Shown here: positions 25,217 to 63,195 of the stretch, in pieces
Layout: every line of letters begins with the position of its first letter
Position numbering within the stretch: the first letter of the stretch is position 1
NCBI GenBank assembly: GCA_027013095.1
Contig: JALUYI010000017.1
Coordinates: forward strand, 1-64,000
Reading direction: 5' to 3'
Origin: Paracoccaceae bacterium
Lineage (GTDB): Bacteria; Pseudomonadota; Alphaproteobacteria; Rhodobacterales; Rhodobacteraceae
Length of the DNA stretch: 64,000 bases
The notes under the pieces: generated by a model
Seen by the model: the letters and a program-made list of their open reading frames with translations, nothing else
The model's database searches: none
Told to the model about the DNA's origin: nothing
Made by a program: the position numbers and the translations under genes

Positions 25217-25257
25217 AAGGTCTTGTCTGACCCTGTTGCGGGATCAGAGCAACAGCA

Positions 25258-27755: not shown

Positions 27756-27760
27756 CTGCC

Positions 27761-44514: not shown

Positions 44515-45039
44515 ATGAGATGCAAGAACTTGGTCGATGTCGGCCGCCGGCAATTTTTGCGCGGCGGCGCAATGGCGACAGCGGGTGCCGCCGTGGTTAC
44601 CGTCGCTGGAGCCTCAAGTGCAAGCGCAGCGCCGGTTGCAGGCGCACAGCTGGACTATCCATCCAACAAGCTGGCCAATATCGCCGACCTCAAAGTTAAC
44701 GAGCCGATGGATATCGAATATCCCGACGCCGACAGCCCGGGAGCGCTGATCAAACTGGGCAAGGCGGTCGAGGGCGGCGTTGGCCCGGACGGCGACATCG
44801 TGGCCTTTTCGACGCTCTGCCCGCACAAGGGGTATAACGTCAATTACAACGACAAGGATCGCACTATGAACTGCCCCGGCCACTTCTCGCGTTTCGACGT
44901 CGAGTCCGGTGGCCAGCAGGTCTGGGGTCACGCCACGTCGAATCTGCCGCAGTTCGTCCTGCGTGTCGATGCAAAGGGCGACATCTACGCCGAAGGCGCC
45001 AGCGACCTGATCTTTGGTCGCCCGTCAAACGTGCTCTGA
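44515..45039 (+). CDS. aioB: Arsenite oxidase small (Rieske) subunit AioB
   Basis: 174 residues with a Tat signal (GRRQFLRGG at about 10-18, hydrophobic stretch, ASA cleavage). Rieske 2Fe-2S ligands are Cys102/His104 (LCPHKGY) and Cys120/His123 (CPGHFSR). It takes electrons from the AioA molybdenum centre and passes them to a soluble cytochrome or similar carrier in the periplasm. Tat export of the AioAB complex relies on this signal. AGGGAGGA precedes the ATG. Confidence 0.95.
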   Translation: MRCKNLVDVGRRQFLRGGAMATAGAAVVTVAGASSASAAPVAGAQLDYPSNKLANIADLKVNEPMDIEYPDADSPGALIKLGKAVEGGVGPDGDIVAFSTLCPHKGYNVNYNDKDRTMNCPGHFSRFDVESGGQQVWGHATSNLPQFVLRVDAKGDIYAEGASDLIFGRPSNVL

Positions 45040-45055
45040 AGGGGAGAAAACGACA

Positions 45056-47509: not shown

Positions 47510-47530
47510 AGCGGGTTTAAACCAATGGAA

Positions 47531-47557
47531 CGGGCGGCCTTTGTGCCGCCCGTTTTT
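47531..47557 (+). terminator. Rho-independent terminator of aioBA
   Basis: CGGGCGGC (47531-47538), loop CTTTGT, GCCGCCCG (47545-47552), then TTTTTA. A perfect 8-bp GC-rich stem 21 nt after the aioA stop. Confidence 0.92.
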
Positions 47558-47612
47558 ATATCCAATGCGGTTTTAGGGTTGTAAATATTATTATTTTATA
47601 TATTCATGAAAT

Positions 47613-48452
47613 ATGGAAAATGTGATTCTCGATCGGCTAACCACCCTCGGACACCCGCAGCGTATGGCAGTGTTTCGCTTATTGATGCGACGCTACCCGG
47701 ATGCCGTGCCGGCAGGTGAACTCGGGCAGGCGCTCGGACTGAAGCCCAGCACGCTTTCGGTCTACCTCGCCGCGCTTGCCTCCGCTGGTTTGGTGGGTAA
47801 AACCCGCCACGGTACATCCCTGCATTACAAGATAGAAATGGAGGCTGCGCGTGAGGTCATTGACTATCTGTTTCTGGACTGTTGCCGGGGTCGGCCACAG
47901 CTTTGTCCAACTGTTTATTCCGGCCAAAATCGAGGAAACGCTCTGATGCCCAGCCGAAAACTAAATGTCATTTTTATATGCACCGGAAATTCGGCACGCT
48001 CGATATTGGCGGAATCAATCCTGCGCGATGAAGCGGGAGACCGCTTCAATGCCTATTCCGCCGGCACGCGACCGGCGGGTAAACCCAATCCCTTCGCGCT
48101 TGCCCTGTTAAAGGAAAAGGGTCACAAAACATCGGGGCTGCGCTCAAAAAATCTGGACGAATTCCAGCAGAGGGGTGCGCCGCAGATGGATTTCATCTTC
48201 ACGGTTTGTGATTCCGCCGCCAACGAGGAGTGCCCGCTTTGGCCGGGCCAGCCGATCAGCGGCCATTGGGGCATCCCCGATCCGGCGGCTGTGAAGGGGA
48301 GTGATACCGATAAATACCGCGCCTTTGAGACCGCCTATGCCCAGATGCAGGCGCGCATTAGGGCCTTCCTCGCCCGTAACCCCGAGGGGTTGGACAAGGG
48401 TGCCTTGCAGAAACATATTGATCAAATCGGCGCTTTAGCGCACACGGAATAG
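47613..48452 (+). CDS. ArsR-type regulator fused to ArsC (LMW-phosphatase arsenate reductase)
   Basis: 279 residues. Residues 1-100 are an ArsR winged helix (LGHPQRMAVFRLLMRRYPD; KPSTLSVYLAALASAGLV) with cysteines at 90, 91 and 98 (DCCRGRPQLC), resembling the C-terminal arsenite site of some ArsR repressors. Residues about 115-260 are a low-molecular-weight phosphatase-type ArsC with P-loop CTGNSARS and a GIPDPA loop. It may sense arsenite and reduce arsenate in one chain. The upstream region is very A/T-rich and no ribosome site is seen before ATG 47613; a leaderless start is possible. Confidence 0.88.
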   Translation: MENVILDRLTTLGHPQRMAVFRLLMRRYPDAVPAGELGQALGLKPSTLSVYLAALASAGLVGKTRHGTSLHYKIEMEAAREVIDYLFLDCCRGRPQLCPTVYSGQNRGNALMPSRKLNVIFICTGNSARSILAESILRDEAGDRFNAYSAGTRPAGKPNPFALALLKEKGHKTSGLRSKNLDEFQQRGAPQMDFIFTVCDSAANEECPLWPGQPISGHWGIPDPAAVKGSDTDKYRAFETAYAQMQARIRAFLARNPEGLDKGALQKHIDQIGALAHTE

Positions 48453-49305
48453 GATAAGGTAGTGTCGCGAGCAATGCCCGAAAGTTGGTGATGGGCTGAT
48501 TGGGTGGCATATCATGGCGGTGTTGACGCGCCGCGATTCTCCGCAGAGAAAAGGATATGCCACATGAAAGGTGATACGATTTTGGAGTTCAGCGATCCAG
48601 CCGGAATTTCACCGGATCCGCTGACGGACATCTTGCGCAAGGGTGCGCCGGATCTGCTGGCGTAGGCGGTGAAAAGATCCGGTTCAGATCGAGCCTTCTG
48701 TCGGCCTGGCTGCGCCGGGCGAAATCGGTCGAGGAGCTGCTACCGTGATTATACCTCAAGGGGTGAGGAGCGCCCGGAAAACAGTCCGGGGGACTGTTTT
48801 CAGCGACGAACACGCGGAGCGCCGGACACAGGTGATTTCGGCGAGGCCCTGGCCGCCCTTCCGGGCCCTGATGCGCCGGGCCTGACATCGAGCACCATCT
48901 TGCGCCTCAAGGCCGATTGGTGGATCGAATACGAACGCTGGTGCCGGCGCGAGCCTCGCGGCGAAACGCTATGTGTATCTCTGGGCCGACGGGGTTTATT
49001 TCAAGCCGCGCATGGACGCCGACAAGCAATGCATGCTGGTGATTATCGGCGCCGACGAGTGGGGCAACAAGGATATTCTGGGCCTTGTGGATGGCTACCG
49101 GGAGAGCAGACAGAGCTGGCACGAACTGCTTTTGGACCTGAAGCGTCGCGGCCTGAGCAAGGCCCCGGCCTGGCCATCGGCGAAGGCGCACTCGGCTTCT
49201 GGAACGCCCTCAGCGAGGTGTTTGGCACAACCCGCGAGCAACGCTGCTGGGTGCACAAGATGGGCAACGTTCTGAACGCCATGCCGAGGTCGCTGCAATG
49301 CCGGG
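48453..49305 (+). pseudogene. IS256-family (Mutator-type) transposase remnant
   Basis: ATG 48564 opens MKGDTILEFSDPAGISPDPL, the IS256-type N-terminus, which stops at TAG 48663-48665. Further pieces in shifting frames are RRAKSVEELLP, GDFGEALAALPGPDAPGL, YLWADGVYFKPRMDADKQCM, GLAIGEGALGFWNALSEVF and RCWVHKMGNVLNAMP. An internal deletion and an inserted palindromic element (48767-48823) break it. Before the gene, GTGGCATATC (48504-48513) and GATATGCCAC (48554-48563) form a perfect 10-bp inverted repeat. Non-functional; it bounds the arsenic island on the right. Confidence 0.85.
48767..48823 (+). repeat. Palindromic insertion element inside the IS256 remnant
   Basis: GAAAACAGTCC (48777-48787), loop GGG, GGACTGTTTTC (48791-48801) is a perfect 11-bp hairpin. 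The 8-bp direct repeat GGAGCGCC flanks it (48767-48774 and 48816-48823). It interrupts the transposase just after YLKG, where VSTGDF would continue. One frame reads PENSPGDCFQ, a peptide I recall from many Rhodobacteraceae proteins. Confidence 0.6.
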
Positions 49306-49363
49306 CCAGTCCATACCCGCTGATGTGGAATCGAAAGAGGCGCAGGTTGTGGGATTCCGGCGG

Positions 49364-50863
49364 TTACATCATTCTGAATGACAGGGCTTCGGCCAGATGG
49401 TGCCGGGCAATGCCCTTGGAGTCGTCAAGATCAGCGATCGTGCGCGCGACCCGCAGAACGCGGTGATACCCGCGGGCCGAGAGGTGGAATTTTTCGGCCG
49501 CGCGGGTCAGCAGTTCGATGCCGTCGGCCTCAGGGGTGGCGATTTCTTCAAGCAACCGCCCTTGGGCGTCAGCATTCACCCGGCAGCCTTGCGTGCCAGC
49601 AAAGCGCGCGCTCTGGACTTCGCGGGCGGCGGAAATGCGGGCGGCGACGCTGCTCGAGGGTTCGCCATCGGCAGGCAGGGACAAATCCTGCATGGTCACG
49701 GCCGGCACCTCCAGACGCAAATCGAAACGATCCAAAAGAGGGCCTGAAATCCGCCCCAGATAATCGGTGCCGCAGTTAGGCGCCCGGTTGCAGGCCAGAG
49801 CGGGATCGGCCAGATGCCCGCATTTGCAGGGGTTTGCCGCCGCCACCAGCAAGAATCGGCTGGGGTAGCGTACATGGGCATTGGCCCGGGCGACGACGAC
49901 ATCACCAGTCTCGATAGGCTGGCGCAGGGTTTCCAGAACCGCACGCGAGAACTCGGGGATTTCATCCAGAAACAGGACGCCATTATGTGCCAACGAGATC
50001 TCGCCGGGTTTTGCGCCACGTCCGCCGCCGACAATAGCCGCCATCGAGGCCGTGTGGTGGGGCGTGCGAAAGGGGCGCGTGCGTGATATCCCGCCCTCGT
50101 TCATAAGCCCCGCGAGCGAGTGGATCATTGACGTCTCAAGCGCTTCCTCGGCGCTGAGCGGGGGTAGGATGCCCGGCAAGCGGGCAGCCAGCATGGACTT
50201 TCCCGACCCGGGAGCTCCGATCATCAGCAGGTGGTGGCGTCCTGCCGCCGCGATCTCAAGCGCGCGCTTAGCCCGTTGCTGGCCTTTGACGTCGCAAAGA
50301 TCGGGGGCGTCTGCCGGGCTGGTGACGTCTCCGGGCTGCGCGGGGGCCAAGACGGTCCGGCCGGTGAAATGGTGTATGCAGGCCAAAAGCGAACGCGCAG
50401 CAATGACCTCGGTTGCATCAACCCATGCGGCCTCGGCGCCGCAGGATTGAGGGCAGATCAGGCGGCATCCCCGGCTGGCCGCACCAACGGCTGCAGGCAG
50501 GGCACCAAGCACGGGAACCAGCGTCCCGTCAAGGGACAGCTCGCCCAGCGCGACGCTTTGTGCAATATCGTCGCCGGGCAGAATATTCAGCGCCGCAAGC
50601 AAGGCAAGGGCGATCGGCAAATCAAAATGCGATCCTTCCTTGGGCAAATCGGCAGGCGACAGATTGACCGTGATTCGCCGAGCGGGCAGCGCGATTGACA
50701 TTGACGTCAGGGCGGCGCGCACCCGTTCGCGGGCTTCGGATACAGCCTTGTCAGGCAGACCAACGATGGAAAAGGCGGGCAGGCCCGGGGTGATGGCGCA
50801 TTGCACCTCGACAAGGCGGGCGTCAATTCCCTGAAAGGCCACCGTATATGCGCGCGAAACCAT
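49364..50863 (-). CDS. comM: YifB/ComM family AAA+ protein (Mg-chelatase-like)
   Basis: 499 residues. N-terminal Lon-protease-like domain (GLPDKAVSEARERVRAAL; NLSPADLPKEGSHFDLPIAL), Mg-chelatase AAA+ core with Walker A GAPGSGKS, Walker B GVLFLDEIPEFSR, FRTPHHTASMAAIVGGG, and a C-terminal domain with RGYHRVLRVARTIADLD. Family members (ComM) are hexameric helicases for branch migration in natural transformation. Full length. It ends near the IS256 remnant, so the insertion did not damage it. Confidence 0.93.
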   Translation of the reverse strand: MVSRAYTVAFQGIDARLVEVQCAITPGLPAFSIVGLPDKAVSEARERVRAALTSMSIALPARRITVNLSPADLPKEGSHFDLPIALALLAALNILPGDDIAQSVALGELSLDGTLVPVLGALPAAVGAASRGCRLICPQSCGAEAAWVDATEVIAARSLLACIHHFTGRTVLAPAQPGDVTSPADAPDLCDVKGQQRAKRALEIAAAGRHHLLMIGAPGSGKSMLAARLPGILPPLSAEEALETSMIHSLAGLMNEGGISRTRPFRTPHHTASMAAIVGGGRGAKPGEISLAHNGVLFLDEIPEFSRAVLETLRQPIETGDVVVARANAHVRYPSRFLLVAAANPCKCGHLADPALACNRAPNCGTDYLGRISGPLLDRFDLRLEVPAVTMQDLSLPADGEPSSSVAARISAAREVQSARFAGTQGCRVNADAQGRLLEEIATPEADGIELLTRAAEKFHLSARGYHRVLRVARTIADLDDSKGIARHHLAEALSFRMM

Positions 50864-50951: not shown

Positions 50952-51776
50952 TCAGACCTTAAACCGTGCATCAAGGATTCCGGCGTCCCCGGCCTCATCC
51001 TTGACATGGGCCTGATAGGGTGCGCGCTTGCCACGATAAAGGATGCCGGTGTTCAAGCCGTCATCGGTCAGAATGCGACGTGCGGCGCGTGCTGGGTCGT
51101 CGGTTTCATCGACCGAGGCCCGATGAACGGCACCTTTCCAAGCGCGCTCATCCGGACGGAAGGTAACACAGGGGCTAAGGATTTCGACAAAGGAAAAGCC
51201 AGGGTGATTGACCGCCTCGACAATGGTTTTGGTGGTGTTCTTGATGTCGCCGGAAAATTCGCGCGCAACGAAATTTGCGCCGGATGCCAGCGCGATCACC
51301 AGCGGTTGAAAGGGTGACAGGCCGGTGCCGCCGGGCGACAGGGCGCTGTCCCAGTCGGGCTCGGTCGTGGGCGAGGGCTGGCCCTTGGTCATGCCATAAA
51401 CCCGGTTGTCCATGACGATATAGGTCATGTCGATATTGCGCCGACAGGCGTGCAGGAAATGGTTGCCGCCAATGGAATAGCCATCGCCATCGCCGCTCAT
51501 CACCAGCACCGTCAGGTCGGGGCGCGACACCTTCAACCCCGAGGCCAGCGCCAGCGAGCGCCCATGGACCCCGTGAAAGCCATAGCAATTCGTATAGGCC
51601 GGAATGCGCGAGGAACAGCCGATGCCGGAAATTACCGCCATGTCCTTGGGGTCGCGGTTCAGGTCGGCCATCGCCTTGGTGATCGACATCAGCACATGGT
51701 AATCACCGCATCCGGGGCACCAGATCGGGGTGACATCGGATTTGTAGTCTTTGGCTTTGAATGCGTTGGCGTTCAT
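50952..51776 (-). CDS. korB: 2-oxoacid:ferredoxin oxidoreductase beta subunit KorB
   Basis: 274 residues. Thiamine pyrophosphate-binding features WCPGCGDYHVL near residue 20, GIGCSSRIPAYTNCYGFHGVHGR and SGDGDGYSIGGNHFLHACRRN (cited in part) identify the beta subunit. With KorA it oxidises 2-oxoglutarate (by analogy with Thauera KorAB) and reduces ferredoxin, which is needed by benzoyl-CoA reductase. Its ATG overlaps the korA stop (ATGA). Confidence 0.9.
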   Translation of the reverse strand: MNANAFKAKDYKSDVTPIWCPGCGDYHVLMSITKAMADLNRDPKDMAVISGIGCSSRIPAYTNCYGFHGVHGRSLALASGLKVSRPDLTVLVMSGDGDGYSIGGNHFLHACRRNIDMTYIVMDNRVYGMTKGQPSPTTEPDWDSALSPGGTGLSPFQPLVIALASGANFVAREFSGDIKNTTKTIVEAVNHPGFSFVEILSPCVTFRPDERAWKGAVHRASVDETDDPARAARRILTDDGLNTGILYRGKRAPYQAHVKDEAGDAGILDARFKV

Positions 51777-53500
51777 GATGCGCTCCAGTCTTTGATGGCG
51801 GTGACGATTTCATCGGGCCCGATCAGATCCGGGCCTTCGCGGTTCAACTGTTGTACCGCGCAGGGCAGGTCCATATGGGCGCGGATATGCCTGAAAAACT
51901 GGCCGCTGTGGGATTGCTCGATCACCAGCAGGCGTTTGGTCTGTGCCAGTTCGCGCCCCAGCGCCTCGGCGGGAAACGGCGAGATCTGACGCAGCGCGAT
52001 CAGCTTTACCCCGCGCATCTGCCGCATGGCCTCGCGCGCGGGGCCGGTCAGCGAGCCCCAAGTCAGGATCGCGGTCTCGCCCCCTCCTTCGACCACACCC
52101 CAGAGGTTGCCATAGTCGAAAGCCTCGACCTTGGTGCGGCGCTTGTCCATTTGCGCCTTTTGATCCGTGGCGCGGCTGGAGGGGGTGCCGCTCTGATCGT
52201 GGGTTAGCCCATCGGCGGTATATTGCCCCCCGCGCGTGCCGGGGAGGGCCATCGGCGAGATCCCGTCAGCGGTTATGGCATAACGGTGGTAGGTTTCGTC
52301 GCGTTCCTGCCGGTATGTTGTGCGCTGCGCCAGAAAGGCGACATCGGCGGGGCGCTCGACCAGAACCCGCGCCTGCCCGAGCGACTGATCCGATAACAAA
52401 ATGACGGGAACCTGCATCGCCTCGGCCATATGAACGGCCCATTGCGCAGTGAACAGGCAGTCGGCAACGCTGGTCGGGGCGACAACCACGTGCGGCGCAT
52501 CGCCGTGAAAGCCGTAAACCGCGATATTTAGGTCGGATTGTTCCGATTTCGTGGCAATGCCGGTCGATGGCCCGGCACGCATCACATCAACCACCACGAC
52601 CGGCACCTCGGCGGCGGCGGACAGGCCGAGCGCCTCCATCATCAGGGCCAGACCGGGGCCCGAAGTTGCGGTCATCGAGGGACGGCCGCCAAAGGAGGCA
52701 CCAATTGCCATATTGATCGAGGCCAGCTCATCCTCAGCCTGAACAAGGGCACCGCCAAGGTTTTTCAACGCCGGGGCCAGATATTCCAGCACATCTGTTG
52801 CCGGCGTAATCGGATAGGCCGCGGCAAAGCGGATCCCGCCGCGAATGGCGCCAAGGCCGACGGCCTCGTTGCCGGTAATCAGCCAGCGCTCACCAGTTTG
52901 CACCGGTGCGCAGGCCAGCGGATAAGCGGGCTGACACGCGGCCGCCACCGCCATTCCGGCGTCGATTCCAGCACGACCGGCGACCACCACCGCATCGCCC
53001 TTTTTGCCAAGTTTCGTGCCAAGGACCTGCAACAGCGCATCCGTCGGCAGGCCGATCAGCCCGGCAACAATACCCGCCGCGATCATGTTTTCCCGCCCGC
53101 CGGGGATTTTTTTGGCCAGTTCCTTCAAGTCGCATTCGTGAATGGCCACGCCACTGTCGGCAAGGGCCGCCGGAACCGGACCGGCGCTTGGATCAGCAAA
53201 GACCAGACCACCCTTGGCCACCGGCATATTGCCGATGAACCGGTCGGCGTTTTTCCAGTCAAGCGCGATCAGGATGTCGAAATCCTTGCTCATGCACTCG
53301 GCGGGATGGGTAGCAAGGCGCACCAGCGCTGCCGCTTCGCCACCCCGGATCTGCGGGCCGACCGAACGGTTGAGAACGCCATACCAACCGGCCTTGCCCG
53401 CGGCCTCGAGCAAAAGCGAGCCTGCGGTGATCGCACCGGCCCCCCCGGTGCCGACAATGGCAAATGAGATACTGTCGCGTGGCTGGGCCGATCGGGTCAT
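51773..53500 (-). CDS. korA: 2-oxoacid:ferredoxin oxidoreductase alpha subunit KorA (gamma-alpha fusion)
   Basis: 575 residues. The N-terminal gamma domain (IVGTGGAGAITAGSLLLEAA; NRSVGPQIRGGEAAALVRL) is fused to the alpha domain (GIRFAAAYPITPATDVLEYL; GPGLALMMEALGLSAAAEVP), the usual architecture of this family. AAGGAG precedes the ATG. It is divergent from had across a 119-bp region that should hold both promoters. KorAB plausibly supplies low-potential electrons from 2-oxoglutarate to the fdx product at 61253. Confidence 0.9.
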   Translation of the reverse strand: MTRSAQPRDSISFAIVGTGGAGAITAGSLLLEAAGKAGWYGVLNRSVGPQIRGGEAAALVRLATHPAECMSKDFDILIALDWKNADRFIGNMPVAKGGLVFADPSAGPVPAALADSGVAIHECDLKELAKKIPGGRENMIAAGIVAGLIGLPTDALLQVLGTKLGKKGDAVVVAGRAGIDAGMAVAAACQPAYPLACAPVQTGERWLITGNEAVGLGAIRGGIRFAAAYPITPATDVLEYLAPALKNLGGALVQAEDELASINMAIGASFGGRPSMTATSGPGLALMMEALGLSAAAEVPVVVVDVMRAGPSTGIATKSEQSDLNIAVYGFHGDAPHVVVAPTSVADCLFTAQWAVHMAEAMQVPVILLSDQSLGQARVLVERPADVAFLAQRTTYRQERDETYHRYAITADGISPMALPGTRGGQYTADGLTHDQSGTPSSRATDQKAQMDKRRTKVEAFDYGNLWGVVEGGGETAILTWGSLTGPAREAMRQMRGVKLIALRQISPFPAEALGRELAQTKRLLVIEQSHSGQFFRHIRAHMDLPCAVQQLNREGPDLIGPDEIVTAIKDWSAS

Positions 53501-53533
53501 GTTGTGGCTCCTTAAACTTCACGGAATTTTCTG

Positions 53534-53562
53534 TTGACGGTATTTAGGTATTCGAGTACTTA
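53534..53562 (+). promoter_or_regulatory. Predicted promoter and overlapping palindromic operator before had
   Basis: TTGACG (53534-53539), 17-bp spacer, TACTTA (53557-53562). The -10 region overlaps an imperfect 18-bp palindrome (53545-53562) with halves TAGGTATTC and GAGTACTTA, 7 of 9 pairs matching. Two related 12-mers, ACGGTATTTAGG (53537) and ACGGTAATAAGG (53566), lie 29 bp apart. This suggests repressor control of the benzoyl-CoA operon and perhaps korAB. Confidence 0.5.
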
Positions 53563-53619
53563 TTTACGGTAATAAGGATACACGGCCTTGTCAACAAGGC
53601 AAAGACGGGAGAAATCAGG

Positions 53620-54684
53620 ATGGCGCGACGCTGGGTCATGCAGGCTGCGAATGCACCGCTGGAGCGGCAGGACTTTACCCCCGCCCCACCCGGCGACGGT
53701 GAAGTCGTGGTGGAAATCGCGGGCTGCGGCGTTTGCCATACGGACCTTGGCTATTACTATGACGGTGTGCGCACGAACCGGCCCTTGCCCTTGACGCTGG
53801 GCCACGAGATCAGCGGGACAGTCGTTCAGGCCGGTGCCGGTGCCGACGCATGGCTAGGCCGCTCGGTCATTATCCCCGCTGTCATTCCCTGCGGGGAATG
53901 CGATGCCTGCGCCCGTGGCAAGGGCACCATCTGCAAGTCGCAAAAAATGCCCGGCAACGATATCGAGGGCGGGTTTGCCAGCCATATCACGGTGCCCGCG
54001 CGGGGCCTCTGCCCGGTGGAGCCCGAGCAACTGCGGGCGGTCGGGCTGGAGCTGGCCGATGTTTCGGTCGTTGCCGATGCCCTGACCACCCCCTATCAGG
54101 CGGCGGTGCAGGCAGGGATCGGCCCCGGCGATCTGGTCGTTGTCAATGGGATTGGCGGTGTTGGAGGATATGCCGTGCAGGTCGCCGCCGCCCTTGGGGC
54201 CAGTGTGGTTGCGATTGATGTCGTGCCGGAAAAACTGGCCGCGGTGCAAGAATACGGCGCCAGCCTGACCCTGAACGCTCGAGACTTTGATCGCCGCGCC
54301 CTTAAAAACGAGATCGCGGACTTTGCTGCCAAAAACGGCCGACGCAACCGCGAGTGGATCATCATGGAGACCTCGGGGACAGCCGCCGGGCAAAAGACCG
54401 CCTTTGGTCTACTGAACCACGGCGCAACGATGTGTGTCGTCGGCTTTACCATGGACAAGGTCGAGGTCCGCTTATCAAATCTGATGGCCTTTCACGCGCG
54501 CCTATTGGGAAACTGGGGCTGCCCGCCCGATCTTTATCCCGGCGCGCTGGATCTGGTTCTGAGTGGCAAGGTCCGCTTGCAGCCCTTCATCGAACAGCGC
54601 CCCCTTGACCAGATCAATCAGGTTTTCACCGAGGTTCACGACGGAAAACTGCTGCGGCGGGCCATTCTGGTGCCAACGCTATGA
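53620..54684 (+). CDS. had: 6-hydroxycyclohex-1-ene-1-carbonyl-CoA dehydrogenase
   Basis: 354 residues of the zinc-dependent medium-chain dehydrogenase family: catalytic-zinc Cys in [23 protein letters not shown], a structural-zinc cluster [15 protein letters not shown], and the nucleotide fold [20 protein letters not shown]. In the Thauera-type benzoyl-CoA pathway Had oxidises 6-hydroxycyclohexenoyl-CoA with NAD+. The assignment depends on the adjoining oah, dch and bcr genes. GGGAGAAATCAGG precedes the ATG. The last bases overlap the oah start (ATGA). Confidence 0.92.
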
Positions 54685-55826
54685 CGGAGACTATCATGCC
54701 CGACACTTTCTCTTTCCGCCCCCACGATCTGGTGCCCGACGATGCCCGCGCCGCGATTTGCGACGAGGTTATTCTGGAAAAACGCCCGGCAAAAGACGCC
54801 GATGGCGCCGAGGTTGACGGACTCTATAACGCCTGGATCATCCTGAACAACCCGGCGCAGTTCAACTCTTACACAACGGCGATGGTCAAGGCGGTGATCC
54901 TGGCCTTTCGCGCCGCGAGCAATGCACGCGATGTCAACGCGGTAGTGTTTACCGGGGTCGGAGACAAGGCCTTTTGCACCGGCGGCAACACCCGCGAATA
55001 CGCCGAATATTACGCTGGCCGACCGCAGGAATACCGCCAGTACATGCGCCTCTTCAACGATATGGTCAGCACCATCTTGACCTGTGACAAGCCGGTGATC
55101 TGCCGCGTCAACGGGATGCGCATCGGCGGCGGTCAGGAAATCGGCATGGCCTGCGATTTCTCGATTGCGCAGGACTTGGCCCGTTTTGGGCAGGCGGGGC
55201 CAAAACATGGCTCGGCGGCAATCGGGGGATCGACAGACTTTCTGCCGGTGATGATCGGGGCCGAACAGGCGATGGTCTCAGGGGTGCTGTGTGAGCCGTT
55301 CTCGGCCCAAAAGGCGCTGCGTCTGGGGCTGCTGACTGATCTGGTGCCGGGCCTCAAGGTCGATGGGAAATACATCGCCAACCCGCTGGTTGAAACCCGC
55401 ATGATCACAGACGCGTGGGGCCGCCTGCTGCATGGCGAGGCTAAAACCGGCGATGATCTCGCCGCCGGCAAGGCGCTGCTAAAACGCGGGCAGATTGACC
55501 TTTCGGCGCTGGATGATGCGGTCGAGCGGCTGTGCACCAAGCTGCTGCTGACCTTTCCCGACTGCACCACGAAATCAGTCGAGGAGTTACGAAAACCCAA
55601 GCTGAACGCGTGGAACGCAAACAAGGAAAACTCCCGCGCTTGGCTGAGCCTGAACATGATGACCGAGGCCAACGCCGGGTTCAGGGCGTTCAACGCCGGC
55701 ACTCGTGAAACCGGACGCGAGGTTGATTTTGTTGCCCTGCGTCGGGCCCTTGCTGCGGGTCAGATCTGGACACCCGAGTTCATCGACAGCCTGATGCCCG
55801 GCGCCGGGGAGGGCAAAGACAGGTGA
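54681..55826 (+). CDS. oah: 6-oxocyclohex-1-ene-1-carbonyl-CoA hydrolase
   Basis: 381 residues, an enoyl-CoA hydratase-fold enzyme with the long N-terminus typical of Oah (known enzymes about 375-380). Diagnostic stretches are [40 protein letters not shown] and [20 protein letters not shown]. It hydrolytically opens the ring to 3-hydroxypimelyl-CoA. It overlaps had and dch by 4 nt each. Confidence 0.93.
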
Positions 55827-56590
55827 CGGCTCCGCTTTTGATATCCCGCGAACAGGATGGCGCCCTCTTGCGCCTGACCCTGAACCGTCCCAAGGCAAAT
55901 ATTGTGGACGCGCGCATGATCGTCGCCCTTGATTCGGCACTGGAACAGGCGTTGGCGGACCCGGAGCTGAAGGCCGTTCTGCTGGCGGCCAACGGACCAC
56001 ATTTCAGCTTTGGCGCGTCGGTAGAAGAGCATATGCCGGAAAGCTGTGCAGCGATGCTGAACGGCTTACACGGACTGTTACGGCGGATGCTGGAAAGCCC
56101 GGTTTCAATCCTCGTTGCGATTCGCGGGCAATGTCTGGGGGGTGGGCTGGAGCTGGCTCTGGCGGGACACCGGCTGTTCGCGGCACCGTCCTCCAGCCTC
56201 GGACAGCCGGAAATGCGGCTGGGCGTTTTTGCCCCGGCCGCCAGCTGTCTGCTGCCGCCACGTATCGGTCAGTCGCGCGCCGAAGACATGCTGCTGAGCG
56301 CGCGGAGCCTGACCGGTGAAGACGCCTTGCAAAACGGCCTTGTGGATCAACTGGCCAAGGACCCCGAGGCCGCGGCTGTGGATTATTTTACCGTCCATCT
56401 GGCGCCGAAATCCGCCAGCTCGCTGCGGTACGCAGTGCGCGCAGCCCGCCTTGGATATGTCGAGAGCATGGTCAAAAAATTGCAAGTCGTTGAAAATATG
56501 TATCTTTACGAGCTTATGAAAACCCGCGACGCGGTTGAGGGGCTAAACGCCTTCATCGCCAAGCGCCCAGCCAAGTGGGAGAACCGATGA
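55823..56590 (+). CDS. dch: Cyclohexa-1,5-diene-1-carbonyl-CoA hydratase
   Basis: 255 residues of the crotonase family: LTLNRPKANIVDARMIVAL, NGPHFSFGASVEEHMPE and AIRGQCLGGGLELALAGHRL (oxyanion-hole region). The ASVEEHMP segment and the cluster position fit dienoyl-CoA hydratase, which adds water to the product of benzoyl-CoA reductase. Starts with GTG inside the oah stop (GTGA) and overlaps bcrC (ATGA). Confidence 0.92.
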   Translation: MTAPLLISREQDGALLRLTLNRPKANIVDARMIVALDSALEQALADPELKAVLLAANGPHFSFGASVEEHMPESCAAMLNGLHGLLRRMLESPVSILVAIRGQCLGGGLELALAGHRLFAAPSSSLGQPEMRLGVFAPAASCLLPPRIGQSRAEDMLLSARSLTGEDALQNGLVDQLAKDPEAAAVDYFTVHLAPKSASSLRYAVRAARLGYVESMVKKLQVVENMYLYELMKTRDAVEGLNAFIAKRPAKWENR

Positions 56591-57762
56591 CAAACCCAAC
56601 CACATCCGAGATCATCGCACGCTGTCAGGAGCTTTACGACGATCTGCGATTCACCAGCGCCCGCGACTGGAAAGACGCTGAACCGGGGCGCAAGGTTATC
56701 GCCCATATGCCGATATATGTTCCGCGTGAGCTGATCCACGCTGCCGGCATGTTGCCGCTGGGGATCATGGGAGGTGGCGACAATCTGGAGGTCATCCACG
56801 GCGACGCCTACTACCAAAGCTATATCTGCCGGATCCCGCGCTCGACCATCGAGCTTGGCCTGTCAGGGCGGCTCGATTTCGTGGACGGGATGATCTTTCC
56901 CTCGATCTGCGATGTGATCCGCAACCTGTCAGGCATGTGGAAAATGCTGTTTCCCGAGGTTTACGTCAAATATTTCGACGTGCCGCAAACCTATGACGAC
57001 GACATCGGCGGCACGTTTTATATCGGCGAGATGCGCGAGTTCCTGACCGATCTTGAAGCTCTGGCCGGGCGCAAGATCAGCGATGACGACATTCGCACCT
57101 CGATCACCGTTTACAACGAGAACCGCCGCGCGATTGCCGAACTTTATCGCCTGCGAGCGGCCAAACCATGGCAGGCTCCGGCGTCCGAGGCCTATCTGGT
57201 GATGCGCGCGGGCCTGACCCTGCCGGTTGAAGATCACACCCGCCTCGTGCACGATTACATCGCCGCGGCAAAGGCCGAAAAGCGCCCAATCAAGGACAAC
57301 TCGCGGATCATTCTGACCGGTATGTTCTGCGAACAACCGCCCCTTAACCTGATAAAATCTCTGGAGCTTTCCGGCTGCTATGTGGTTGACGACGACTTTA
57401 TGCTGGTCAGTCGCTGGCTGGTTGGCGATGTGCCGACGGACGGGGACCCGGTTTACAACCTCTCGCAGGCGTTTCTGCATCAGTCGATGTCCACGGCGGC
57501 AAAATATGAGCCAGACGAGGCCGAAAAAGGCCAGTTCCTGGTGCGCGCGGTCAGGGACACCGGTGCCGAAGGGGTGATTTTTGCCTCGACCAGTTTTTGC
57601 GATCCCGCTCTGTTGGACCGGCCAATGCTGCAAAACGTCCTGAAGGCAGCCGATATCCCCTACATCGCCTTCAAATACTCTGAAAACTCTGGGCAGATGC
57701 AGCCGATCCGCGAACAGGCCGGAACCTTTGTCGATTCAATCAAACTCTGGAGCGCCGCATGA
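56587..57762 (+). CDS. bcrC: Benzoyl-CoA reductase subunit C
   Basis: 391 residues from ATG 56587, overlapping the dch stop. 2-hydroxyacyl-CoA dehydratase D-component fold: ELIHAAGMLPLGIMGGGDNL, FPSICDVIRNLSGMW, ILTGMFCEQPPLNLI and FASTSFCDPALLDRP. Cysteines in these stretches are candidate ligands of the active-site 4Fe-4S cluster. With BcrB it forms the module that binds and reduces benzoyl-CoA. Length agrees with the 43-kDa subunit of Thauera. Confidence 0.94.
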   Translation: MTNPTTSEIIARCQELYDDLRFTSARDWKDAEPGRKVIAHMPIYVPRELIHAAGMLPLGIMGGGDNLEVIHGDAYYQSYICRIPRSTIELGLSGRLDFVDGMIFPSICDVIRNLSGMWKMLFPEVYVKYFDVPQTYDDDIGGTFYIGEMREFLTDLEALAGRKISDDDIRTSITVYNENRRAIAELYRLRAAKPWQAPASEAYLVMRAGLTLPVEDHTRLVHDYIAAAKAEKRPIKDNSRIILTGMFCEQPPLNLIKSLELSGCYVVDDDFMLVSRWLVGDVPTDGDPVYNLSQAFLHQSMSTAAKYEPDEAEKGQFLVRAVRDTGAEGVIFASTSFCDPALLDRPMLQNVLKAADIPYIAFKYSENSGQMQPIREQAGTFVDSIKLWSAA

Positions 57763-59066
57763 AACCTTCGATCCTGAAAGCCCAACCCGCCGACGTCCAA
57801 AAGGACGCCTCCATGATCAAGCAAAAACAGATGATGGCAGGCCATTACGACCGCCTGACAAGCGCCCCAGAGACCGGCGCCAAGGTCGCCTCGACCTTTG
57901 TACCGGGAAATTTGAACGAGTTGATCATGTGCTTTGATCTGGTCAACAACCTGCCCGAGGTGAACGCCATCCAGAACGGCCTGCGCAAGAAATCCGGCGC
58001 CTATATCATGGAGGCCGAGCGCTCGGGCCATTCCGAGGACGTCTGCACCTATGTGAAATCCGACATCGGCATGATGCTGAAGGGTAACATCGGCCCGAAC
58101 GGCAAACCCTTGCCAAAGCCCGACGTTCTGCTTTTGAGTTACACCGGCTGTTTCACCTTTCTGAAATGGTTCGAGCTTTTGCGCGAGCAATACAAATGCC
58201 CAACCATTTTCTTGCAAACCCCCTATATGGCCGATGGAAAGATCACGCCAAACATGATCCAGTACATGGTCAAACAGTTGAAAGAGAACGTTATTCCGGT
58301 TCTCGAAGAGGTCTCGGGGGTCAAGTTCGACATTGATCGTCTGCGCGAATATCTGAAAAAATCCGCCGTTGCCGAGGACGATCTGGTCGCCGTCTTGCAA
58401 AGCGCCAAGAACAAGCCCTCGCCCATCGATGCCTATTTTGGCGGCATCTATTACATCGGCCCGATTTTCGGCGCCTTTCGCGGCACAGACGACGCGATCG
58501 ACTATTATCGGTTCCTGCGCGCCGAAGTGGAAGAGCGCATCGCCAAGGGGCTTGGCCCGGTCACGCCCGACGGCACCATGAGTGAGGAGAAATATCGTCT
58601 GGTCGTCGAAGGCCCACCCAACTACACGAATTTCCGCCAGTTCTGGAAAATGTTCTATGACGAGGGCGCAACCGTGGTTGCCTCGAGTTATACCAAGGTT
58701 GGCGGCACCTATGATTACGGCTTTCGCCACAACCCCGACAAGCCGCTGGAAAGCCTCGCGGAATATTGCCTGAATGTATACACCAACCGCAGCCTGCCAA
58801 TGCGCATTGATATGCTGAGCGATTATATCAACGAGTATGAAGCCGACGGGTTGCTGATCAATTCCATCAAATCCTGCAACAGCTTTTCCGCCGGGCAGTT
58901 GTTGATCATGCGCGAGGTTGAAAAACGCACCGGAAAACCGGCGGCCTTTATCGAAAGCGATCTGGTGGACCCGCGTTATTTCTCGGGTGCCAATATCAAG
59001 AACCGGCTGGAAAGCTATTTCCAGATGGTTGAACAAAAACGCAGCGGACGGGGGGCAGCGGCATGA
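57759..59066 (+). CDS. bcrB: Benzoyl-CoA reductase subunit B
   Basis: 435 residues, same dehydratase fold as Bcr[59 protein letters not shown] and [20 protein letters not shown]. Conserved cysteines again sit in cluster-ligand positions. It overlaps bcrC and bcrA by ATGA junctions. Oxygen-sensitive cytosolic enzyme. Confidence 0.94.
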
Positions 59067-60388
59067 AAACCTTTGTGGGAATTGACCTCGGCTCAACCAC
59101 CACCAAGGCGGTGCTAATGGACGAGGACGAAAAGGTTCTGGGCCGCGGGATCACCAACTCGCGCTCGAACTATGACACGGCCTGCCGCGTGGCCCAGCAG
59201 GAGGCGGCGGTTGATGCGCGCTTTACCCTGTTTCGCCGCGAATTCGGTGCCGAGGATGGCAGCAAGCAGGAGGTCGAGGACTTTCTCGCCAGTCTCGAGC
59301 GCGCCTTTCGTTTGGAACAGTTTCTTGAACAACTCGACGATCTTGAGGAAACCTGTATTCGGCAGGTTCAGGGGGCGCGGTTTGAAAAGAATGCCGCTGG
59401 CGTGAAAACGGCTCTGGCCGAGGTCTTTGGCCGTCTGCGCGGCGAGGCGCCGGCGATGTATGCACCGGGGGCGGCGCGCAAGTCCGATTTTTTCCGCGAT
59501 ATCGCGGGATCTCGATACTTGGCCCTGGCCGAAGACGTCGCCCGCGCCGCCGATTTGCCTTATGATCTGTTGCTGAATGTCTATGACAAGTCGATCATCG
59601 CGGTGGAAAACCGCCCGCCCCGGGGGGTTCTGTCGGACAAATTCCAGCGCGCCCTGAAACGGGTGGTCGCCGAGGGGACGGGCCTGTCGGGGGAAATGCT
59701 GAAACCGGTTCAGCACGCACTGGATGTCGAGCTTGAGGAAAGCTATCTCGTTGGCACCGGCTATGGCCGCGTCACACTGCCCTTTTCCAAGGAGCATATC
59801 CGCAGCGAGATCCTGTGTCACGGGCTGGGCGCGCATATGATGTATCCTGAAACGCGCACCGTTCTTGATATCGGCGGGCAGGATACCAAGGGGATTCAGG
59901 TTGACGAAAACGGCATCGTCGAAAATTTCCAGATGAATGATCGCTGTGCGGCGGGCTGCGGGCGCTATCTCGGCTATATTGCCGACGAAATGAACATGGG
60001 TCTGCATGAACTTGGCCCGCTGGCGATGAAATCGGAAAAACCGGCGCGGATCAATTCAACCTGCACGGTGTTTGCAGGGGCGGAATTGCGTGATCGGCTG
60101 GCATTGGGTGAGGCACGTGAGGATATTTTGGCGGGTCTACACCGCTCGATCGTGTTGCGGGCAATGTCAATCATCGCGCGCTCGGGCGGGGTTACGGACC
60201 AGTTTACGTTTACCGGCGGGGTGGCCAAGAACGAGGCCGCCGTGCGCGAATTGAAAAAGCTGGTGTTTGAAAACTACGGCAAGGTGAAAATCAATATCGA
60301 CCCGGATTCGATTTATACCGGAGCGCTGGGCGGGGCCGAATTTGCCCGTCGCGCCGCCGAGGGGCGTTTGGAAGGAGTGGACGCATGA
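59063..60388 (+). CDS. bcrA: Benzoyl-CoA reductase subunit A (ATPase/activator)
   Basis: 441 residues. An ASKHA ATPase (BadF/BcrA type): phosphate loop [17 protein letters not shown], a family-specific insertion (about 60-250), [16 protein letters not shown] and the cluster-binding [10 protein letters not shown], plus [15 protein letters not shown]. BcrA and BcrD share a 4Fe-4S cluster and use two ATP per electron pair to push electrons from ferredoxin to BcrBC. The longer of the two activator subunits, as in Thauera. Confidence 0.94.
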
Positions 60389-61230
60389 CCATTGCAGCAG
60401 GAATTGATGTCGGCACGGGGGTCGTCAAGGCGGTGATCTTCAAGGTCGAGAACGGCACTGAAACGTGGTTGTCGCGCGCCAATATGCGCATCCGCCAACG
60501 CGACCCGATGGAGTTGGCGCGCGAGGCGTTCGAGCAGTGTCTTGAGGATGCGAACCTCGAGGAAAGAGACATAGATTATGTGGCCACGACGGGCGAGGGC
60601 GAGGCGATTCCCTTTCACACCGGGCATTTTTATTCGATGACCAGCCACGCGCGCGGGGCGCGGTTTCTGAACCCCGAGGCGGTTGCTATTCTGGACTGCG
60701 GCGCCTTGCACGGGCGTGCCATCATCACCGATGAGCGCGGCAAGGTCCTGAACTACAAGATGACCAGCCAATGCGCTTCAGGCTCGGGGCAGTTCTTGGA
60801 AAATATCGCACGATACCTCGGCATTGCGCAGGACGAAATCGGCAGCCTGTCACTGTCGGCGGACAACCCCGAAGAGGTCAGCTCGATCTGCGCGGTGCTG
60901 GCGGAAACCGACGTCATCAACATGGTTAGCCGGGGCATCACGGCACCCAACATTCTGAAGGGCATCCACATGTCCATGGCCAACCGTCTGGCCCGGCTGT
61001 TGAAAAGCATCGGCGCCCGCGAAGGAGTCATCATGATGACCGGCGGTCTGGCGCTGGATGAGGGGCTGTGTGCGGCCATGCGTGAGCAGCTGGGCAAGAT
61101 GAAAGGGGTGACAGCCGAGGTCGCGAACCACCCGGACTCGATCTACGCCGGGGCAATCGGCGCGGCGCTCTGGGGGGCGTTCCGGGCGGAAAAACTGGCT
61201 GCGGCCGGACACTTGTTGAAAGCATCCTGA
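60385..61230 (+). CDS. bcrD: Benzoyl-CoA reductase subunit D (ATPase/activator)
   Basis: 281 residues. ASKHA ATPase partner of Bcr[51 protein letters not shown] (cluster Cys) and [20 protein letters not shown]. It lacks the BcrA-type insertion, so is about 160 residues shorter, as usual. ATGA overlap with bcrA. Confidence 0.94.
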
Positions 61231-61252
61231 GGCACGAAAAGGAGAAACACCA

Positions 61253-61498
61253 ATGGCCCTGATGATCATCGAAAGCTGCACCGCCTGCGATGCGTGTGAG
61301 CCGGTCTGCCCAAACGAGGCGATCTCGGTGGGGGATCCCATCTATATCATCGACCCGATGAAATGCACCCAATGCGTCGGCGAAGAGGATGAGCCGCAAT
61401 GCCGTCTGGTTTGCCCGGAATCCTGCATCGTGGACAATCCCGACTGGGTGGAAAGCGAAGAAGAACTGCAGGCAAAATACGATGCCCTGCACGGCTGA
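61253..61498 (+). CDS. fdx: 2[4Fe-4S] ferredoxin (Alvin type), electron donor to BCR
   Basis: 81 residues. First cluster motif CTACDACEPVCP (residues 7-18). The second, CTQCVGEEDEPQCRLVCP, carries the 8-residue spacing typical of Chromatium/Thauera-type ferredoxins, which have very negative potentials. AAAAGGAGAAA precedes the ATG, 22 nt after bcrD. It should carry electrons from KorAB to BcrAD. Confidence 0.95.
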   Translation: MALMIIESCTACDACEPVCPNEAISVGDPIYIIDPMKCTQCVGEEDEPQCRLVCPESCIVDNPDWVESEEELQAKYDALHG

Positions 61499-61621: not shown

Positions 61622-62626
61622 TCAGAGTGGGCAGCTTAGCGCGATGCTCTGGCTCGGGGCAAAACCTGACAGGCTGAAAAAGGCGATCAGGGGCGTATCA
61701 TTCCAGGCAACCTCGGTGCGCAGGCGTTCGACCTGCAATATGGCGAGGTTCGAGATCAACTGGTCCATCAGCGCGCGGCCAATGCCCTGACCTTGAAAGC
61801 CGGGGTCGATGCCCAGTGCGTCCATCACGGCCACAGGAACGGTGCGCCCGAACTCGCCATAATCCACCCGTGCCATGATGTAACCGACGACAAAGCCGTC
61901 TCGCTCGGCCACCAGCGACAGACGCACGCCCGCACCGACCTCGATCTGACGCTGGATATGGGCAAAATAACTGCCGCGATCCTGACCGGAAAGAGCGCGA
62001 TCAATACGTTTCACGGCCGCCAGATCCTCGGGTTTCATGGCCCGCAGCAATTCCCGGTCCCGAGCCAAAGCATGGACCTCATCCCCACTGGGATCACTGT
62101 AATCGGTCTCTGCCGGATCTCCGGCGTCGTTCAGGTCCGCGTTGACAGTCGGGGAGAACGCCTCGATCGTGCGGCAAAGGACCATCCGCGGCGCCAGATC
62201 AAAACCGGCATTGCCAAGGAACCCAAGCAGCGCCCGGTCGGACCAGTCCACCTGTGTTTCAAGGGCCGATGTGCCCTTGTGAACCAGAATTTCCTTAACC
62301 CTGTTCAGCAGATCATGCCCCGCGCCGTGGTTCTGGACCTCTCGCGAAACCCCGATGGCATCCAACGCCGCCCGCGCGCCAGGTTGGCCGAAATCGCCGT
62401 CAATCAGTCGGGCCATGGCAAAGCCGCACAGGTGGCCCGCGGCGTGCAAACCCACATAGACGTAATCATGCGGGCGTTCCAACGCGGCATCCAGACGGCG
62501 TTCAAAGAACGTCCGGCGCGCCTGCCCGCTGCTGGCCTGATCAATGGCGATGACCGCCTCTAGATCAGAGCGCCCGAGCGGCGACAGGTGGGTATCGGTG
62601 GCGGTTGCGGCGGTGTGTTCTGTCAT
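61622..62626 (-). CDS. Tandem GNAT-type acetyltransferase
   Basis: 334 residues from ATG 62626 (a TTG at 62656 overlaps the hemerythrin stop as TTGA and could also be used). Two GNAT domains: the first has SREVQNHGAGHDLLNRV as its acetyl-CoA loop, the second GIDPGFQGQGIGRALMDQL. Substrate unknown. Same strand as the hemerythrin gene and probably one operon with it. Confidence 0.82.
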   Translation of the reverse strand: MTEHTAATATDTHLSPLGRSDLEAVIAIDQASSGQARRTFFERRLDAALERPHDYVYVGLHAAGHLCGFAMARLIDGDFGQPGARAALDAIGVSREVQNHGAGHDLLNRVKEILVHKGTSALETQVDWSDRALLGFLGNAGFDLAPRMVLCRTIEAFSPTVNADLNDAGDPAETDYSDPSGDEVHALARDRELLRAMKPEDLAAVKRIDRALSGQDRGSYFAHIQRQIEVGAGVRLSLVAERDGFVVGYIMARVDYGEFGRTVPVAVMDALGIDPGFQGQGIGRALMDQLISNLAILQVERLRTEVAWNDTPLIAFFSLSGFAPSQSIALSCPL

Positions 62627-62652
62627 GGCGCTCTCATCGGTTGAAGGTTGAT

Positions 62653-63153
62653 TCAAACAGTGCCGGCATAGCGTTCGGCCAGCGCCATGTCGGTCTCGGC
62701 GTCCAGCAGATCGTCAAGCATGGGCAGCAGGGCCATTTCTTCTTTCTGGATATGGGCAAACATGCGCTCGACCAACTCGGCAGCCGCGTTGCGATAGCTC
62801 TGCCAGCTGCTGGCGGTAAAACCGGTCTCTAGCGCCTGTTTTGAGAGGTCGGCAACCTGCTGGCCAAGGGGCAGAATGGCGGCGTGCTCGGCCCTGAGAT
62901 GGGCACCGATCGCTTGATCTCCAGCCTCTTCCAGACGCGGGAAAAGTTCAGTCTCTTCAAAGGTGAAATGGGCACTGACCTCTTGTGAAATGGCGCTGGC
63001 AGCCAGCGACAGGGTTTTCGAGGTCTGCGCATCGCTGGTATCGGCCGGTTTTCGTTTAGCCTGCGCCAGCAAGCGGTCGAGAGCCTCGATCACCTCAATG
63101 GTACGTTGGTGGTCTTCGTGAAGGATCTGCGGGGTGCGGCGAACAAGGTTCAT
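62653..63153 (-). CDS. Hemerythrin HHE domain-containing protein
   Basis: 166 residues forming the four-helix hemerythrin pattern: ILHEDH, SAHFTFEETELFPRL, IGAHLRAEHAAILPL and AHIQKEEMALLPMLDD contain the His/Glu iron ligands. Such proteins bind oxygen or nitric oxide, or help repair iron-sulfur clusters. This fits beside an oxygen-sensitive iron-sulfur pathway (inference). A GGAG lies 6 nt before the ATG. Confidence 0.9.
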   Translation of the reverse strand: MNLVRRTPQILHEDHQRTIEVIEALDRLLAQAKRKPADTSDAQTSKTLSLAASAISQEVSAHFTFEETELFPRLEEAGDQAIGAHLRAEHAAILPLGQQVADLSKQALETGFTASSWQSYRNAAAELVERMFAHIQKEEMALLPMLDDLLDAETDMALAERYAGTV

Positions 63154-63169: not shown

Positions 63170-63195
63170 TACCTATTTAGGTACCTTAATACCGC
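63170..63195. promoter_or_regulatory. Palindromic A/T-rich site before the hemerythrin gene
   Basis: TACCTA-TT-TAGGTA (63170-63183) is perfect over 6 bp arms, overlapped by GGTA-N6-TACC. TATTTAGGTA (63174-63183) is identical to 53541-53550 in the korA/had control region. It may be a shared operator, or just a reverse -10 element (TAAATA) common to both. Confidence 0.45.

Follow-up and report, generated by a model that had tools for sequence, protein, structure and literature searches.

An ATP-dependent benzoyl-CoA reductase cluster in a Rhodobacteraceae genome, with a candidate BadM-type operator and an accessory HHE-GNAT gene pair

How does a member of the Rhodobacteraceae come to carry genes for the anoxic reduction of aromatic rings, and with which other genes do they work? 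The question is raised by the cluster had-oah-dch-bcrCBAD-fdx, with divergent korAB, in a 64,000-base stretch of a Paracoccaceae bacterium (assembly GCA_027013095.1). This stretch, termed here the window, is bases 1-64000 of contig C17 (77,701 bp) in a 2.9 Mb genome rated 100% complete. A first-pass annotation had read the cluster as a whole ATP-dependent benzoyl-coenzyme A (benzoyl-CoA) pathway, probably acquired by horizontal transfer. The reading favored here, to which a probability of about 0.75 is given, is that of a Bcr operon with Had, Oah and Dch, belonging to a scattered BadM-type regulon, accompanied by accessory HHE and GNAT genes and long resident in its genus. What the data show is membership in these protein families, co-occurrence and the sharing of sites; the activity of the enzymes, the regulator's identity and any protective role are putative.

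Enzymes, pathway and descent of the cluster

Genes were assigned using NCBIfam equivalog models and their cut-offs. All seven of had, oah, dch, bcrC, bcrB, bcrA and bcrD score above their equivalog cut-offs, and fdx scores above its own (Table 1). Four distinct subunits (C, B, A and D), each above its cut-off, mark the reductase as class I and Bcr-type; dch, had and oah, above cut-off within one operon, mark the ring-opening branch as Thauera-type. Models of 2-hydroxyacyl-CoA dehydratases, by comparison, give BcrB 167 against 750 (HadB) and BcrC 189 against 700 (HadC), and the Bzd-type models (BzdN, BzdO and BzdQ) give BcrC 115 against 454, BcrB 67 against 449 and BcrA 144 against 380. Moreover, two different ATPase subunits are present, unlike the single activator ATPase of the 2-hydroxyglutaryl-CoA and 2-hydroxyisocaproyl-CoA dehydratases. 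In comparisons with solved structures, BcrA and BcrB both match subunits of 3-methylbenzoyl-CoA reductase best, ahead of dehydratase activators and dehydratases. The earlier assignment to an ATP-dependent benzoyl-CoA pathway, rather than to the 2-hydroxyacyl-CoA dehydratases, is borne out on all three counts: the Bcr cut-offs are passed, the dehydratase models are far from reached and the structure matches agree.

The residues expected of such an enzyme are kept throughout an alignment of 66 loci (63 of the 80 named loci, two further loci and the window). Invariant in 66/66 are cysteines 85, 112, 252, 268 and 342 of BcrC (numbered from the GTG start), 58, 96, 131, 147, 337 and 373 of BcrB, 252, 295 and 334 of BcrA, and 130 and 169 of BcrD; BcrA and BcrD each hold an invariant cysteine pair with 39-residue spacing (66/66). 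The conserved cysteines of B and C, and those between A and D, are presumably cluster ligands. The ferredoxin has an insertion in its second cluster motif, giving the long form C-x2-C-x8-C-x3-C, which we take to be of the Allochromatium type. Of the 54 named loci that extend 9.9 kb upstream of bcrB, 50 have a korB gene near bcr; korA combines POR and POR_N domains within a single protein. By its sequence, the locus does not stand out among class I (ATP-dependent, Bcr-type) benzoyl-CoA clusters, and the pathway itself is already textbook.

Two known systems place it further. With the class I operons of Thauera aromatica and Magnetospirillum it has bcrCBAD, fdx, dch, had, oah and korAB in common; it differs from them in its Rhodobacteraceae host, in the GNAT-HHE pair that follows the cluster, and in having its ligase and hcr genes on other contigs. 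With the bad cluster of Rhodopseudomonas pseudopalustris DSM 123 it shares BcrCBAD homologues (67-83% identical), kor, a BadL-like GNAT, a BadM-like Rrf2 protein and a tandem GNAT of the same sequence cluster; the had, oah and dch homologues of that species, however, are only distant (28-36%), and no HHE gene was found in its locus.

The genes scanned next to the cluster include neither a benzoate-CoA ligase nor a regulator, as had been noted before, and on contig C17 the ligase family gives just two weak matches (55 and 32 bits); both functions, however, are present on other contigs. A search of the genome located a benzoate-CoA ligase on contig C25 (TIGR02262, 720 bits against 375.25), adjoining BoxC and BoxB, which are both over cut-off; hence this genome also has the aerobic epoxide route. 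On contig C59 lies 4-hydroxybenzoyl-CoA reductase (HcrA, 1241 bits against 994.55) together with a DUF2249 homologue, a membrane protein, a BadL-like GNAT and a BadM-like Rrf2 regulator (PF02082, 91 bits). Such genes often follow bcr elsewhere: of the 45 named loci that include 9.9 kb past bcrB, 26 have hcrA, 27 the membrane protein, 27 DUF2249, 29 badL and 23 badM. In several relatives the whole hcr/badLM block is continuous with HHE-GNAT-bcr, so in the window's genome the block appears to have been split. The first inventory was to this extent incomplete: it missed the Hcr genes on another contig, the downstream GNAT-HHE pair and the shared operator described below.

From established knowledge of these families, the following scheme can be proposed. 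KorAB would oxidize a 2-oxoacid, probably 2-oxoglutarate, and so reduce ferredoxin; BcrAD would hydrolyze ATP and hand an electron to BcrBC, which would reduce benzoyl-CoA to the diene; and Dch, Had and Oah would hydrate, oxidize and open the ring. Benzoyl-CoA could be supplied by the benzoate-CoA ligase encoded next to the aerobic box genes and also, via HcrABC, from 4-hydroxybenzoyl-CoA. The BadM-like Rrf2 repressor beside hcr most likely controls these loci through the palindrome GTAYTNNARTAC, the box locus excepted, and the probable function of the HHE protein is to shield the iron-sulfur enzymes against nitric oxide or oxygen.

How the cluster came to be in this genome can be approached from its distribution. 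BcrB exceeds the cut-off in 12 of 394 Rhodobacteraceae genomes and in 14 of 367 genomes of an alphaproteobacterial class sample, so that the cluster is indeed as uncommon as first supposed. Within the genus of the window, by comparison, it is carried by 9 of 10 genomes, including all eight of good quality, the sole negative genome being 77% complete. The composition is native, as the first-pass annotation had also surmised: by tetranucleotide distance, 34 of 37 ten-kilobase windows of the genome (some of them overlapping the cluster) lie farther than the cluster itself from the mean of the stretches of that genome that were compared. Given this composition and carriage, the cluster is, as far as these data reach, long resident in the genus and not newly arrived.

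A tree of concatenated BcrCBAD (a quick tree, n = 66, made up of the 63 named loci having all four proteins, the window, L119 and L123) assigns the window to a 26-row clade in which 20 rows are named Rhodobacterales; loci named as Halieaceae and Roseibium nest inside this mainly Rhodobacterales clade, and L070 (Rhodobacteraceae) and L123 (of the same family, on a long branch) fall outside it. In a second tree, built from 19 genomes and omitting the long branch L123, the row closest to the window is of the same genus. A single Bcr clade for the genus is nonetheless rejected by the approximately unbiased (AU) test (p = 0.0002): Roseovarius amoyensis groups with one member of the genus (support 100/99) and genome G117 with another (98/97), whereas an rpoB tree unites the genus (88/87). 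This conflict between the trees implies that the cluster has moved between the genus and other Rhodobacteraceae, and the nesting suggests a direction for that transfer. Of the earlier proposal of horizontal transfer, exchange within the family is therefore supported and recent acquisition is not. The genus is thus a steady carrier of anoxic ring reduction that trades the cluster with better-known relatives.

A conserved palindrome and its candidate regulon

Between korA and had, a block of about 40 bases is conserved while its flanks vary, and the core of this block is the palindrome GTAYTNNARTAC. Of the 80 named loci, 25 lack had or the 330 bp before it and were set aside; in the other 55, the had promoter contains this palindrome with at most one mismatch in 53 cases and exactly in 34. 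An exact site is also present in the korA/had region of Roseovarius amoyensis. In 74 control loci the rate of sites is 0.019 per 340 bp; because these controls include ten loci fetched for strong HHE matches, whose six exact copies are HHE promoters by position, this rate is, if anything, too high. A set of 82 sequences totalling 1.39 Mb, made up of the window, a stretch of C59 and the 80 named loci, holds 69 exact copies where a first-order model expects 0.26, these copies not being independent inasmuch as many loci are related. The promoters of HHE genes in relatives contain the site exactly in 19 of 45 cases and with at most one mismatch in 24 of 45.

Within 251,958 bp of the window's own genome there are four exact sites against 0.05 expected: at 53548 in the window, on C59 between hcrC and badL, on C59 before ridA, and on C33 before a CoA ligase. 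In the box stretch of C25 no site was seen. The badD homologue of R. pseudopalustris is closely preceded by a one-mismatch copy, itself situated directly after an FNR-type box. In Rhodopseudomonas palustris, BadM attaches to the fragment between badC and badD, and acetamidobenzoates, whose formation runs through BadL, release it (PMC6191541). Because of this binding, the R. pseudopalustris copy near badD, and the sites at badL and ridA, we infer that the palindrome is a candidate BadM operator and that the pathway may form one regulon in at least three places. The arrangement resembles the BadL/BadM system of PMC6191541 in that the gene of an Rrf2 regulator, the inferred repressor of a dearomatizing operon, adjoins a GNAT gene; it differs in that badL-badM lie on another contig with hcr, and in that bcr has a second GNAT, the tandem one, at its side. 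Since the operator is specific, a regulon of BadM-like proteins becomes testable.

FNR-type boxes were considered separately. Strict boxes occur in 11 of 51 korA/had regions; the Rhodobacterales regions have none, in contrast to the R. pseudopalustris locus with its box before the badD homologue. Such a box was looked for in the window and is absent from its korA/had region.

Two of the operator copies stand beside further genes. On C33 (L272, 938-4261) a copy lies about 160 bp ahead of genes for a CoA ligase and a PCC-domain protein and is flanked on its opposite side by an IS66 transposase; the ligase, which scores 189 bits against 375 on TIGR02262, could not be named. On C59 (L183, 10897-14639) a GltD-like oxidoreductase and PorA/PorB-like genes lie some 600 bases past the copy at 10296; these may provide the regulon with a second enzyme for electron supply or for 2-oxoacids.

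The HHE-GNAT pair, contrary observations and rival explanations

Directly downstream of the cluster, on the opposite strand and overlapping each other by 4 bases, lie genes for a hemerythrin-like HHE protein and a tandem GNAT. Their distribution was compared with that of bcr among the 394 family genomes, with bcr-positive defined as the 12 genomes having BcrB over its cut-off; G078 (a contig-end fragment at 248 bits) and the weak matches in G162 and G283 were counted as negative. The tandem GNAT reaches at least 100 bits in 11 genomes, all within the 12 (0/382 others; next best 33 bits), the match in G371 containing one in-frame TGA. HHE reaches at least 116 bits in 10 genomes, again all within the 12 (0/382 others; next best 32 bits). 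Fisher p-values are about 2e-20 (GNAT) and 3e-18 (HHE), for genomes that are almost one per genus and yet not independent. Among 51 named loci with 6.5 kb downstream of bcrB, HHE is present in 40 and GNAT in 40, and their orientation relative to bcr varies between lineages, from which it follows that the linkage was made or kept more than once. Within the family, HHE and GNAT are thus two marker genes that closely track bcr, and they probably belong to the same regulon as the pathway.

The presumed iron ligands of the HHE protein (H15, H62, E66, H90, H134 and E138) are invariant in 44/44 sequences, and we take this pattern of four histidines and two glutamates to match the ligands of YtfE. YtfE is also its best PDB match (E = 6e-5), with only the C-terminal part of YtfE covered; the protein falls far below the cut-off of the RIC family (TIGR03652, 32 bits against 204.7). 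The window's GNAT clusters apart from the BadL-like single-domain GNATs, and one of its halves is weakly similar (33 bits) to the GNAT at 8799-9263 of C59. The predicted model of the tandem GNAT (mean predicted local distance difference test, pLDDT, 78.5) matches several kinds of tandem GNAT, including glucosamine and mycothiol acetyltransferases, so that the substrate is not fixed by these matches; it probably acts on a small molecule or on a ligase.

In relatives, HHE adjoins a DUF2249 protein and a membrane protein; the window's genome keeps only HHE beside bcr. Outside the Rhodobacteraceae, HHE is better described as part of a DUF2249-membrane protein set that is often gathered into bcr clusters. 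The membrane protein, first labeled NnrS, does not bear that label out (best of four members scanned, 8.8 against 28 bits on PF05940), and a PDB profile search with it gave no match. For the member in L050 (15525-16790), however, the predicted fold (pLDDT 86.7) is heme-copper-oxidase-like and matches cbb3 oxidase (Z 34.2) and nitric oxide reductase (Z 32.9) over nearly its whole length at about 10% identity. The copy in the window's genome lies on C59 (L183, 3240-4565) and has no Pfam assignment. In L257, L258 and L260 (one genus, 1.4-2.5 Mb) genes for DUF2249, the membrane protein and HHE occur without bcr; a gene near this set in L258 and L260 is presumably hemN.

The literature (PMC11218638) associates DUF2249 with hemerythrin-like and heme-copper-oxidase proteins and reports that DUF2249 genes are induced in denitrification; the partners in those denitrifier sets are the same as in the relatives examined here, where they are instead tied to an aromatic-degradation cluster. 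Likewise, nnrS and dnrN (ytfE) recur in nitric oxide (NO)-responsive regulons (PMC1274295), and a hemerythrin-domain gene of unclear role is described (PMC6449761) within the BenR/AphS/BoxR-regulated benzoate clusters of Rhodocyclales and Rhodoferax. In view of the heme-copper-oxidase-like fold and of this literature on DUF2249, hemerythrins and NO regulons, protection from NO would be the most likely role of HHE, with oxygen scavenging as an alternative. More broadly, bcr in Alphaproteobacteria may possess a module for protection and control (HHE and the tandem GNAT, often with DUF2249 and the membrane protein) that shields an enzyme sensitive to O2 and NO, its scattered genes being united as a single regulon by one BadM-type operator; this is advanced tentatively, at somewhat less than even odds. 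The literature searched yielded no description of such a dedicated module, and no paper was found treating both NnrS and benzoyl-CoA. If HHE does guard the reductase, it would help to explain how facultative nitrate reducers keep a fragile enzyme working.

Several observations weigh against the favored reading. Among the enzymes, korB falls just under its TIGR02177 cut-off (258.8 against 261.9 bits; korA is over its own), and HcrB (382 against 405) and HcrC (237 against 258) of C59 are likewise below theirs. NarG (2082 bits against 1084.15) supports nitrate reduction; full denitrification is not supported, insofar as a search of the window's genome did not find NirS and found only two COX1-type proteins. 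As to the palindrome, the related promoters are not independent; two had promoters (those of Ruegeria marisrubri and L067) lack a site at up to one mismatch; the site in the window's own HHE promoter (63181) has one mismatch and is not significant alone; sites with at most one mismatch number 8 distinct in 252 kb where 3.2 are expected by chance; and the R. pseudopalustris site is itself mismatched, such a site occurring by chance in about 2 of 100 stretches of 340 bp. As to the gene pair, the class sample has HHE in 11 of 14 bcr carriers and also in 5 of 353 bcr-negative alphaproteobacteria, in four of these five, genes for DUF2249 and the membrane protein come before that for HHE, and the fifth shows korAB, HHE and GNAT at the end of a contig. 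Five bcr-positive genomes of other families were read at the HHE gene; in four, HHE stands in the DUF2249-membrane protein set at a distance from bcr, and in the remaining one the stretch that carries it lacks bcr. Lastly, G009 and G006, of the window's own genus, have neither GNAT nor HHE near bcr in the stretches read.

Four rival explanations compete with the favored reading, two of which concern the cluster itself. The main substrate might be the CoA ester of another ring acid (3-methylbenzoyl-CoA, for example), or the enzymes might serve a different dehydratase reaction, as the best solved homologues might be taken to indicate; that ranking is weak, however, because no chain named as a Bcr-type reductase is among the solved matches, and with four subunits over the Bcr-type cut-offs and far below those of the dehydratase and Bzd types, and with had, oah and dch over pathway-specific cut-offs, this is hardly to be expected. 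Recent acquisition by the lineage from outside the order, which would account for rarity in the family, for the disagreement between the Bcr and rpoB trees and for the Halieaceae- and Roseibium-named loci within a mainly Rhodobacterales clade, is very improbable in the face of carriage by nearly the whole genus, a tetranucleotide distance below that of most genomic windows (some of them overlapping the cluster), and a closest Bcr row from the same genus. Nor do plasmids offer a source: tblastn with BcrB matched 14 of 72,556 plasmid records, at 22-25% identity among the matches listed, and a plasmid origin was rejected on account of the distance of these relatives.

The other two concern the genes and sites around the reductase. 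That GNAT and HHE are passive neighbors carried along with bcr, having no part in the pathway, would fit the occurrence of HHE without bcr in the DUF2249-membrane protein-HHE set, its separation from bcr in several bcr-positive genomes, and its absence from 3 of 14 bcr-positive alphaproteobacteria. Passive carriage is unlikely all the same, given a nearly perfect profile within the family, with high scores for neither gene in any bcr-negative genome, the differing orientations, and the sites preceding HHE in about half of the loci. A somewhat better chance, still well short of probable, is given to binding of the palindrome by some regulator other than BadM, of Crp type or MarR type for example: the assignment to BadM is putative, and badM lies within the flank in just half or so of the loci with 9.9 kb downstream, where contigs also break. 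The exact sites beside badL and ridA, which flank badM on C59, and the R. pseudopalustris copy, in the place bound by BadM in R. palustris (PMC6191541), nevertheless favor BadM, and the FNR-type boxes are separate and were seen only outside the Rhodobacterales.

Layout of the window and neighboring genes

All of the genes named by the first-pass annotation were located where it had placed them (Table 1), and its overlapping junctions were likewise recovered: seven junctions (had/oah, oah/dch, dch/bcrC, bcrC/bcrB, bcrB/bcrA, bcrA/bcrD and korB/korA) overlap by 4 bases, that of dch with bcrC depending on placement of the bcrC start at ATG 56587 rather than at the GTG 56575 of the open reading frame list. 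A gap of 22 bases separates bcrD from fdx, and one of 119 bases separates the divergent korA and had.

Table 1. Features of the benzoyl-CoA cluster and its flank, in window coordinates (scores in bits against model cut-offs)
Feature	Coordinates	Strand	Evidence
korB, 2-oxoacid:ferredoxin oxidoreductase beta subunit	50952..51776	-	PF02775; TIGR02177 258.8 vs 261.9
korA, 2-oxoacid:acceptor oxidoreductase alpha subunit	51773..53500	-	TIGR03710 543 vs 482.75
korA/had divergent promoter region	53501..53619	.	Conserved element across loci
Palindrome GTATTCGAGTAC, candidate BadM-type operator (consensus GTAYTNNARTAC)	53548..53559	.	Site conservation
had, 6-hydroxycyclohex-1-ene-1-carbonyl-CoA dehydrogenase	53620..54684	+	TIGR03201 572 vs 338.65
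oah, 6-oxocyclohex-1-ene-1-carbonyl-CoA hydratase (ring opening)	54681..55826	+	TIGR03200 639 vs 464.45
dch, cyclohexa-1,5-dienecarbonyl-CoA hydratase	55823..56590	+	TIGR03189 384 vs 292.5
bcrC, benzoyl-CoA reductase subunit C	56587..57762	+	TIGR02263 689 vs 421.15
bcrB, benzoyl-CoA reductase subunit B	57759..59066	+	TIGR02260 859 vs 486.55
bcrA, benzoyl-CoA reductase ATPase subunit A	59063..60388	+	TIGR02259 773 vs 578
bcrD, benzoyl-CoA reductase ATPase subunit D	60385..61230	+	TIGR02261 454 vs 312.85
fdx, 2[4Fe-4S] ferredoxin	61253..61498	+	NF033683 109 vs 86
Tandem GNAT acetyltransferase	61622..62656	-	Two GNAT domains; family profile follows bcr
Hemerythrin-like (HHE) diiron protein, first gene of HHE-GNAT pair	62653..63153	-	PF01814
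GTACCTTAATAC, one-mismatch operator copy upstream of HHE-GNAT pair	63181..63192	.	Site match

Elsewhere in the window, a branched-chain-type ABC transporter lies between two AMP-binding enzymes (22972-31595), possibly a set for the uptake and activation of organic acids. The two enzymes (22972-24198 and 29526-31595) were considered as aromatic ligases, a role that is not claimed for them here: their identity is 29-32% to the PaaK-type family and 22-24% to that of benzoate-CoA ligases. An open reading frame at 48669-49466, which lies between the arsenite oxidase genes and yifB, has a short, weak match to an IS256 transposase and is perhaps a remnant. The arsenite oxidase genes themselves (45014-48452) encode a member of the large subunit family (1075 bits on TIGR02693) and, after it, an ArsR-ArsC-like fusion; 5' of them are genes for a phosphonate-type binding protein, a histidine kinase and a sigma-54 response regulator.

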